A DNA stretch of 37,261 nt, from positions 1 to 37,261 of IMG/VR virus record IMGVR_UViG_3300005096_000123. One strand, given 5' to 3'. Below the pieces are notes generated by a model that saw only the letters and a list, made by a program, of their open reading frames with translations, was not told where the DNA came from and ran no database searches. The stretch is from a virus. Numbering within the stretch: the stretch's first letter is position 1; every line of letters starts with the position of its first letter. Positions 2,983 to 12,466 of the stretch are shown in pieces. A program made the translations under genes and the position numbers.

Positions 2983-3567
2983 TTAAACTACCCTATCCAA
3001 CCCATAGTGCCTGACCAATGCGTTAAGCACTAAACGTAAATCACCCTCAAGATTGTATATCTGTCGATCTTGAACCACAAACAGATTTAGAGCGCTTAGG
3101 AGGCCCGGTTGCGCACGATACGCACCTTGGGCCTCTTTAATTGCTTTGAGCGCTCCTGTGTGCCTTCTGATAGCGTCCTGTGCCCATTCTGGCGTGACAG
3201 GTGAACCGCCGCCAGTTATCCCATCATAATTAACTGCCTTGATCTGCTTTGGAGCGTCAATGGCAATCTGGTAATCCTTCAGGTTTCGTAAATATTGCTG
3301 AGATGCTTGGTATTGAGGCTCTGAAACCGTACCAGACATTCGCGCCCGGCCTATTGCTGTTCCGCCCCGCTGGTCCCTTGCTGCTTCTCTGGACAATCCA
3401 AACACCCTTTCTCTGGCGTCAACCGCAACCGACATGGTTTGTCTTTGCTCTTGATCAAAAGCCTCTTGGCGCTGTTTGTCTCCAGCCTTACCGCGAATGA
3501 GCCGACCGGATTTGGTGCGCTTACCTGGCTTTGGCTTTGGTCCTGATCTGGTCAACAAAACACCCAC
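2983..3567 (-). CDS. Conserved alphaproteobacterial-phage-type protein of unknown function
   Basis: 194 aa starting at GTG, one base after the upstream stop. The N-terminus (SGPKPKPGKRTKSGRLIRGK) is basic, followed by VDARERVFGLSREAARDQRGGTAIGRARMSG and a Tyr/Gln-rich helical region (SEPQYQASQQYLRNLKDYQIAI). From memory this pattern is common in phages and prophages of Alphaproteobacteria without known function. A nucleic-acid-binding role is plausible from the basic N-terminus. The start is uncertain because the ribosome-binding site is weak. Confidence 0.65.
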   Translation of the reverse strand: MGVLLTRSGPKPKPGKRTKSGRLIRGKAGDKQRQEAFDQEQRQTMSVAVDARERVFGLSREAARDQRGGTAIGRARMSGTVSEPQYQASQQYLRNLKDYQIAIDAPKQIKAVNYDGITGGGSPVTPEWAQDAIRRHTGALKAIKEAQGAYRAQPGLLSALNLFVVQDRQIYNLEGDLRLVLNALVRHYGLDRVV

Positions 3568-3568
3568 G

Positions 3569-4018
3569 CTAAGGTAGATAAACTTGGTTCTTTTTTGAGC
3601 ATTTTAGTATTTCCTCCTCAACCTTTTTTGGAACAGTCCACATGATAACATCTGTGTCAAATGCTGCGCACAAATCCAAGGCATAAGCGGCACGCTTTTT
3701 TGTGGGGATGATGTATGCAAGGCTGAAAAGGATTTCATTAGGAAGGTCTCCAATGCCGTACGATGATACCGGGTTGTTTCTAAACTTAGAAAAACACTCA
3801 AAAAATAAAACCAACTCGATATTGCTTAAGCAGTTAGCGGGGTATCGCTCCCTATCAATTCGTCTTGAAAACGAGACAACTCCAATAGTAGGAGCCACTA
3901 ATCTAAGGCCAATTATGCTTGGCGGTAAGCTTCTTGTGTCACCGGACCAATAACTATCACTTTTATTTTTATTGGAATTAACTTCAGGGTAACATGGATA
4001 TTCCGTACGACTTATCAT
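3569..4018 (-). CDS. Hypothetical 149-aa protein next to the structured RNA
   Basis: The ATG at 4018 is preceded by AGGA; longer versions would run into the hairpin at 4043-4080. The protein has Lys/Ser-rich parts and a hydrophobic centre (LPNEILFSLAYIIPTKKRAAYALDLCAAF). I do not recognise a family. Its DNA is more AT-rich than its neighbours and it lies directly downstream of the putative large RNA, so it may be a later acquisition or a partner of the RNA. Both are inference. Confidence 0.6.
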   Translation of the reverse strand: MISRTEYPCYPEVNSNKNKSDSYWSGDTRSLPPSIIGLRLVAPTIGVVSFSRRIDRERYPANCLSNIELVLFFECFSKFRNNPVSSYGIGDLPNEILFSLAYIIPTKKRAAYALDLCAAFDTDVIMWTVPKKVEEEILKCSKKNQVYLP

Positions 4019-4042
4019 TTTCCTAGTTCTCCGTTGATTAGT

Positions 4043-4080
4043 GAGCCGGGGCAGCAACAGGGAGGAACCCACCCCGGCTC
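4043..4080 (-). terminator. Strong 9-bp hairpin at the 3' side of the structured RNA
   Basis: GAGCCGGGG and CCCCGGCTC pair perfectly over 9 bp with a 20-base loop that itself holds GGG-TTCC-TCCC. No U-run follows on either strand, so it is not a standard intrinsic terminator. It may be a processing or stability element bounding the RNA upstream of the gene starting at 4018. Confidence 0.5.
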
Positions 4081-4341
4081 TAAGCGCAGCCATGAGGGAG
4101 GAAAGGACCCCGGCGCGCTATCTTGTTTAGTTCTGGCGGGCAGGGCGCCAATCCTGCTAGAAACCCGTTTACCCGCGACGGGAAAGGCTCAACCGGCTCT
4201 TTGGCTTCTCGGCTAATCATTATCGGTCTATACCTATGCTTCTCCATTTCAGCATCGCCGCCAGATATGCACTCGCCGGGAAATCCCAGTCTGTGCAATT
4301 GAATTGGTAGGCAGGGCGTTACTCCTGCTTCGGGCCGTCTC

Positions 4342-4460
4342 ACTGAGGCAGGATTTGAACCTGCAAAGCCATCGCGACCACGGCTACGGGCCACCCCCGT
4401 CAATTCGGGAATAAGGCGGTACACCTTCTCCGCCAGCGTTTACCATTCCGCCACTCCGAG
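4342..4460 (-). other. tRNA-Leu-like domain inside the structured RNA
   Basis: Read on the minus strand, TGGCGGAATGGTAAACGC resembles the D-arm of class II (Leu) tRNAs. It is followed by a GGCGG/CCGCC stem (4415-4434) whose 10-base loop contains AAG, a CCCG/CGGG hairpin in the position of a variable arm, and a canonical T-arm GCAGG-TTCAAAT-CCTGC (4348-4364). The outer 7-base ends pair at only 5 of 7 positions, the anticodon loop is 3 bases too long, and about 31 extra bases precede the T-arm. It is therefore unlikely to be a functional tRNA: it is a decayed tRNA or a mimic built into the larger RNA. Confidence 0.45.
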
Positions 4461-4843
4461 ATTTCACATTCATCTCCGCTACCAAACTAATTGAGAAGCG
4501 CCAGGCTTTTGTTACCGCAGCCCAACCCGACCATATAGGTACGGGCTTGTATAACACATCTCAAACTGTATTCAGTGCCGCCGGTACGCTTGCCCTATGA
4601 TAGTTTCCTAAATACGACCCATACCCGGTAGGCCAACCATCATAGACACTGAATTTTGCCTGGCGAGCGATAAAGTTTCATGCGGGCCACCGTTTCAGCT
4701 TAAAAGCATTACCATCCTTATGTTGGTGCTTTGCCTTGCGGTTGATCGTCTCTTTACCGTCGCCAGAGTTGAATTGGGCTTAGGGTCCTGAAGGTCAATC
4801 TTGCCTCATCCGCCCGTTTCCGGTACGGAACCCATACCCAAAC

Positions 4844-4993
4844 TTAATCTTTGAATTTTCTTTCCAGCCTTGCCAATGTCCACCGAGTAAATACTGACGC
4901 TGGATACCAACTATCGAGCAAACGGTATACAAATTCTCCGTTAGGATGCATCACCCGTATGTCAGTATTGCGAACCGTAAAATACTCCATCAT
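4844..4993 (-). CDS. Hypothetical 49-aa protein
   Basis: The ORF starts MMEYFTVRNTDIRVMHPNGE and ends ARLERKFKD. The first ATG overlaps the stop of the upstream gene (ATGATG, with TGA inside), and AGGAG lies just upstream. The sequence looks like a genuine short soluble protein (a beta part, then WYPASVFTRWTLARLERKF helix). I do not recognise it. It is the last gene before the structured RNA, whose first helix begins 2 bases after its stop codon. Confidence 0.65.
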   Translation of the reverse strand: MMEYFTVRNTDIRVMHPNGEFVYRLLDSWYPASVFTRWTLARLERKFKD

Positions 4994-12256: not shown

Positions 12257-12466
12257 TCAAAAAAGTGCCGGATGCTTTTTACACACCCGGCCAGTTTTCC
12301 TTGGGGAGGAACAGTCAAACAAATCTGGACCAATAGTCTGATGCCAGTTTTGTTTTGCATGCAGATCATTCCACACGCCCCCAGCATATGCCGGGGCGCA
12401 AAGATACCTGATACCCTTGCGTCCCAGCGCATTAGAATGGTGCCCAGAACAAATAGGACATGGCAA
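12257..12466 (-). CDS. Possible small zinc-binding protein
   Basis: A TTG-started frame encoding 69 aa with CPICSGHH near the N-terminus, then a Cys in GIRYLCAP, later FDCSS and RVCKKHPALF, enough Cys/His for a zinc site. It ends 11 bases before the next start. A competing frame from a TAATG at 12432 (75 aa, ending at 12205) overlaps the same DNA; only one is likely real. I prefer the Cys-rich frame for its ordered Cys/His pattern and fit to the next gene, but it lacks a clear ribosome-binding site. Confidence 0.45.
   Translation of the reverse strand: MPCPICSGHHSNALGRKGIRYLCAPAYAGGVWNDLHAKQNWHQTIGPDLFDCSSPRKTGRVCKKHPALF

Follow-up and report, generated by a model that had tools for sequence, protein, structure and literature searches.

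GOLLD and ROOL are large structured phage RNAs that are often found near tRNAs, and GOLLD can carry tRNAs in its linker (PMC12286853). Two small phage RNAs, RNA C and RNA D of T4 (species 1 and 2 RNA), also come from a tRNA region, and their role is not known (PMC3014915). Near its 3' end, RNA C carries a canonical T-arm (CCGGGTTCGAATCCCGG), whereas a D-arm like the one described below was not seen in it. The c4-type RNAs of phages P1 and P4 act as antisense RNAs that pair with a target in their own transcript. In this work we analyzed a virus record of 37,261 bases ("the window" means this whole stretch of DNA), whose terminase is 58-64% identical to those of phages of Sulfitobacter, Paracoccus, Rhizobium and a Microcystis culture. 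One gene-free region of it contains a c4-2-like domain and two tandem copies of a structured module. A cmscan search of the whole window at the gathering threshold found neither GOLLD, ROOL nor any other Rfam family, in agreement with the original prediction, which could not place the RNA in these families. GOLLD and ROOL also gave no match in the region up to an E-value of 10. The module differs from these two large RNAs in that it is about 100-230 nt long and recurs alone. We concluded that the window RNA is neither of the two and not a tRNA, and that it is a putative composite RNA of the broad kind that includes GOLLD and ROOL.

The gene-free stretch and its 5' domain

The original prediction had proposed an ornate non-coding RNA of about 800 nt on the minus strand. 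The stretch is indeed gene-free, running from a stop codon at 4844-4846 to the next gene, which probably starts with an ATG near 4017. Perfect helices were found as described at 4658-4665/4499-4506, 4647-4654/4570-4577, 4639-4645/4595-4601 and 4774-4778/4837-4841; a fifth, 4783-4788/4827-4833, forms five of six pairs in the predicted register and is not perfect. The density of helices in the stretch is weak evidence of structure: it has six perfect 8-bp helices vs. 2.1 in shuffled sequences (p ~0.05), but 7% of the other genome windows equal this number. Sliding folding z-scores average -0.25 in the region and do not differ from those elsewhere in the genome, and folding energy was dropped as structural evidence because it is unremarkable. 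Unusually stable folds are predicted at two other places in the window, 3001-3150 and 12301-12450, with z of about -4.4 to -5.3, and are stronger than any fold in the region studied here. The nested 8+8+7-bp helices of the middle domain (Table 1) had no homologue in our searches, and BLAST of the whole region against phages gave no match. Support for a structured RNA on the minus strand came through two modules at 4133-4485 that were absent from the original list of helices; the compensatory changes among homologues that the prediction had named as its test support these modules rather than the helices it listed.

The GAAA hairpin that had been noticed in the 5' domain belongs to an element resembling c4-2 RNA (RF02944, c4 clan). 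This was the only match from a permissive Rfam search and scores 35.6 bits, below the gathering cut-off of 41, with an E-value of 1.4e-5 against all Rfam in 1.1 kb and a single-family E-value of 1.2e-7 in the genome. The match is full-length (model positions 1-79 of 79), the consensus structure and the conserved bases are present, and the flagged non-standard pairs are all located in the outer closing helix. We read the 80-nt 5' domain as a divergent c4-2-like element and not as a proven c4-2 member. The match differs in extent from the RNA studied here, covering its first tenth only and being silent on the modules. Clear c4-2 members from a pattern search of genomes (57-79 bits) are mostly Bacteroidales, with one Desulfobacteraceae genome and one other bacterium. 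In IMG/VR, the first two c4-2 patterns gave no match or coding-type DNA only, and a looser third pattern gave chance-type matches only. A possible pairing of the c4-like domain with the T-arm nested in module 1 (11/12) was within chance and was rejected.

The promoter-like site of Table 1 ends 9 bases ahead of the 5' domain and would place the start of the RNA close to it. Promoter matches in the window are weak only and no clear terminator was found; the G+C-rich hairpin behind module 2 is not called as an intrinsic terminator.

Two tandem modules and their likeness to tRNA

The modules were first located through direct and inverted repeats of the stretch. A tandem duplication of a whole 171-nt unit was considered and rejected, as the alignment backs a shared hairpin-helix element only. 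The common plan consists of a closing helix of at least 7 bp, the bases CG, a 5-bp hairpin with a GAA... loop (GAAAGCAGA-type), a variable insert and, directly against the closing helix, another 5-bp hairpin whose 8-nt loop is of the RGUAGCGY type. Both window modules follow the full plan of the family defined by covariance model R1 (see below). A Watson-Crick-only descriptor, with 0.017 matches expected per strand in the shuffled genome, finds modules 1 and 2 in the window; a third, weaker match elsewhere in the window has a 4-bp first hairpin and a longer span. A relaxed descriptor allowing G-U pairs was discarded for its many chance matches.

Table 1. Features of the gene-free stretch, in window coordinates. 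E-values of model R1 are rough, owing to a short calibration.
Feature	Position	Strand	Details	Basis
Promoter-like site	4855..4882	-	TGGACA-16-GAAAAT	Consensus 9/12; weak, position suggestive only
c4-2-like 5' domain	4767..4846	-	Conserved UAUGG, GUA.CGGAAACG, CCUAA	RF02944 match
Middle domain	4499..4665	-	Nested 8+8+7-bp helices of the original prediction	Helices perfect
Module 1 (T1o)	4304..4485	-		R1 31.9 bits, E 1.2e-5; covariation
Module 1, closing helix	4485-4479/4310-4304	-	Followed by CG	
Module 1, first hairpin	4476-4458	-	Loop GAAUGUGAA	
Module 1, second hairpin	4328-4311	-	Loop AGUAACGC	
tRNA-like element nested in module 1	4340..4460	-		Sequence
Module 2 (T2)	4133..4264	-		R1 39.5 bits, E 2.3e-7; covariation
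Module 2, closing helix	4264-4258/4139-4133	-	Followed by CG	
Module 2, first hairpin	4255-4236	-	Loop GAAAUGGAGA	
Module 2, second hairpin	4157-4140	-	Loop AUUGGCGC	
G+C-rich hairpin after module 2	4043..4080	-	GAGCCGGGG...CCCCGGCUC; no U run	Sequence

The arm order of the module is that of the top half of a tRNA (RF00005): a 7-bp helix, two bases, a D-arm-like hairpin, and a 5-bp hairpin against the helix. It differs from a tRNA in having no anticodon arm, in the 8-nt RGUAGCGY loop that replaces the T-loop, in the variable length of the closing helix, and in being unmatched by the tRNA model. The link to tRNAs suggested in the original prediction is borne out, though not in the form expected: no tRNA gene is called in the window (ARAGORN gives two low candidates, with relaxed settings only), but a tRNA-like D-arm/T-arm pair does lie inside the stretch, nested in module 1. 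Its D-arm at 4451-4436 (GCG GAAUGGUAAA CGC) is followed by a 71-nt insert and a T-arm at 4364-4348 (GCAGG UUCAAAU CCUGC), and its acceptor CUCGGAG/CUCAGUG forms five of seven pairs. Neither ARAGORN nor the Rfam tRNA model calls this element, and the variable inserts of the modules and of the nested element have no anticodon arm in common. In Pseudanabaena phage Pan3, a tRNA match scoring 34.9 bits lies within a module of 30.8 bits, an arrangement like that of the tRNA-like arms in module 1. The nested element of the window also resembles the tRNAs in the GOLLD linker. The nested tRNA-like elements of the window and Pan3, compared with the tRNAs in the GOLLD linker, may hint at a shared logic of large phage RNAs.

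Relatives of the module and covariation

The same Watson-Crick-only descriptor, drawn from the window, was run over 1.8 Mb of related loci; on contig L003 it gave a third copy, which adjoins the SSB gene. Because chance matches are expected and were seen over 1.8 Mb, this copy alone is a lead only. BLAST with it gave short exact matches in Synechococcus and Pseudomonas phages, which proved to be the two hairpins of full modules, and further BLAST added Ochrobactrum phage POI1126 and Pseudomonas phages phiAH14a, Persinger, PotUPM1, D14H and relatives. A divergent copy (23.7 bits) is present in Sulfitobacter phages NYA-2014a, pCB2047-A and pCB2047-C, which belong to the closest relatives by terminase. 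On the alphaproteobacterial plasmid NZ_CP025065.1 of Roseomonas mucosa (L225, 1916-2027), a module of 29.1 bits adjoins a HicB-family antitoxin gene, and two further R. mucosa records carry the same module hairpin. The members thus come from phages of Pseudomonas, Ochrobactrum, Sulfitobacter and cyanobacteria, and from one alphaproteobacterial plasmid. Two candidates of 18.7 bits (L010) and 16.7 bits (L211) were rejected as members, and a 17-nt match in L008 was judged to be due to chance. Model R1 gave no match in the T4 locus (L158). It also found nothing in 148 genomes from the phylum to which a Desulfobacteraceae genome belongs, a negative that, for want of a positive, carries no information.

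Since the relatives were found via short shared stretches, mostly hairpins, pairing in the closing helices was for the most part not a selection criterion. Seven-base closing helices of differing sequence pair in phages of different hosts. Model R1 was built from seven relatives outside the window, with the window excluded, and in a full-sensitivity search of the window the next match behind the two modules reached 12.5 bits. Among these seven members, 99.2% of the pair cells are standard pairs and 25 are double-change cells; the covariation is 0.627, compared with 0.165 for shuffled alignments and at most 0.15 for slid ones. With 13 members, 98.6% of the pair cells pair, 52 double-change cells are distributed over all three helices, and the covariation is 0.706 (0.163 shuffled, at most 0.11 slid); the seven-member figure is the cleaner one because the 13-member alignment was fitted to the model. 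A residual circularity is that L003 was picked by the window-derived descriptor, while the other six of the seven members were not. The covariation is strong with and without the window members. We concluded with very high confidence that the two modules are a conserved structured RNA, the fold of which has been kept by evolution via pair-preserving changes. No Rfam family matches the modules, their fold is absent from the Rfam 15 library, and our searches of the open-access literature gave no description of it. A fold of this kind, kept by compensatory change across several phage groups, offers a new handle on phage non-coding RNA.

The double changes keep the pairs regardless of frame, which argues against a small protein being encoded here with incidental pairs. 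A 114-codon open frame (4080-4424, minus strand) overlaps the modules, and in phage Orimi01 the module lies inside an annotated hypothetical protein. However, the 114-codon frame matches nothing in Pfam or PHROG, phage records contain no relative of it, and most other members are annotated as intergenic; we consider a coding region extremely unlikely. The Orimi01 annotation that overlaps the module (XAI70718.1; L202, 2298-2771) is probably spurious, at the 5' end of the gene if not throughout.

The modules could also be decayed, functionless tRNA genes left from a tRNA array, given that their arm order is tRNA-like, that one element keeps canonical D- and T-loops, and that the module of POI1126 is placed between two tRNAs. 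The three helices are kept by double changes in 13 members, however, and the loops are conserved but not tRNA-like, which indicates selection and not decay. The Rfam tRNA model misses the modules, and R1 is silent on 606 kb of contigs that had been picked for their tRNA-like elements and many of which have tRNA arrays. Such remnants are a very improbable source of the modules.

Genomic context and possible function

The genomic context of the module varies among phages. The Sulfitobacter phage copies sit in a gene-free gap upstream of the terminase, and the window copies are located about 4-5 kb upstream of the terminase if the record is read as circular, which is an assumption. A repressor or control gene neighbours the module in Orimi01, PotUPM1 and the D14H/AUS531phi group, and an intrinsic terminator lies directly behind it in Persinger, D14H and OQ658365. 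In some members the closing helix continues well past 7 bp, by a further 13 in D14H. The GAAAGCAGA-type loop of the first hairpin is broken by an inserted small hairpin in three Pseudomonas aeruginosa phages (L213-L215); the loop therefore tolerates extension. Just upstream of the Orimi01 module, and near a repressor-like gene, we observed a long hairpin-closed tRNA-like element (L202, 2100-2250) with GGGTTCGAATCCC and GATTTGG/CCAAATC.

In the window, the stretch follows the gene direction, right after one gene and just before the next, with no terminator between it and the latter. Together with the likeness of the 5' domain to c4-2, this would fit a cis-acting leader in the mRNA of the downstream genes, controlling how these are transcribed or translated in the manner of a c4-like attenuator that has its targets downstream. 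Against a leader, the relatives precede unrelated genes, the terminator comes directly after the module in the three phages named above, and the c4-like domain, at its best match, is no more complementary to the downstream RNA than shuffles are (p 0.12). We regard cis control as rather unlikely.

The explanation that in our judgment best accounts for the locus as a whole, and that we put forward with some hesitation, is that the two tandem modules on the minus strand act as a trans-acting, tRNA-shaped scaffold RNA. Transcription of the minus strand, which may begin near 4850, would yield a stable non-coding RNA from this stretch, and the two conserved loops would probably dock like D- and T-loops. 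The candidate docking bases are GC and GC in most members but GU and AC in module 1, and the fit is imperfect in module 2; because they are nearly invariant, only module 1 has a compensating docking change. The module may form a rigid scaffold in the shape of a tRNA, shielding the variable insert and presenting it. As the closing helix can far exceed 7 bp, the module resembles the top of a tRNA and not a free acceptor end. The most likely action of the RNA would be in trans, as a regulator or a decoy, in the course of infection or lysogeny; this is suggested by the position of relatives in phage control regions and by the terminators just behind the module in several of them. A function in trans is itself a possibility to which we attach low confidence. 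With similar reserve, the module may lie at the heart of a widespread and so far unrecognised class of phage non-coding RNAs. In this reading, unrelated phages would use the scaffold in infection as a trans-acting tool, with a loop-docking code of its own and with cargo that is hypervariable or consists of nested tRNA-like elements.

A decoy or counter-defence RNA, with tRNA-shaped modules that soak up host anti-phage nucleases or tRNA processing enzymes, would be in line with the tRNA-like shape and with the nested tRNA-like elements in the window and Pan3. The anticodon arm is not conserved, however, the helix end is not a free acceptor, and the members have no link to defence systems, and this role appears improbable. 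Members of the module family occur in phages of cultured hosts, namely Orimi01 and Orisa01-03 (Pseudomonas syringae 7C) and Persinger and others (Pseudomonas aeruginosa), so that transcription, processing and deletion are directly testable.

A different set of tRNA-like elements was observed in at least 119 viral contigs (IMG/VR loci L039-L157; examples are L059 1521-1607, L075 2869-3853 and L109 10181-10506). They combine a D-arm of the tRNA-Leu type with a canonical T-arm and an acceptor of 7 bp, in most cases AGTCAGG/CCTGACT, and a hypervariable insert of 50-80 nt replaces the anticodon arm. All seven acceptor pairs are present in 110 of 124 elements, and ARAGORN calls three of 126, among the matches listed. 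These elements are possibly a further family of anticodon-less phage tRNA-like RNAs. Contig L109 also contains a GOLLD RNA at 1293-1710 (262 bits), together with tRNAs and two anticodon-less tRNA-like elements.
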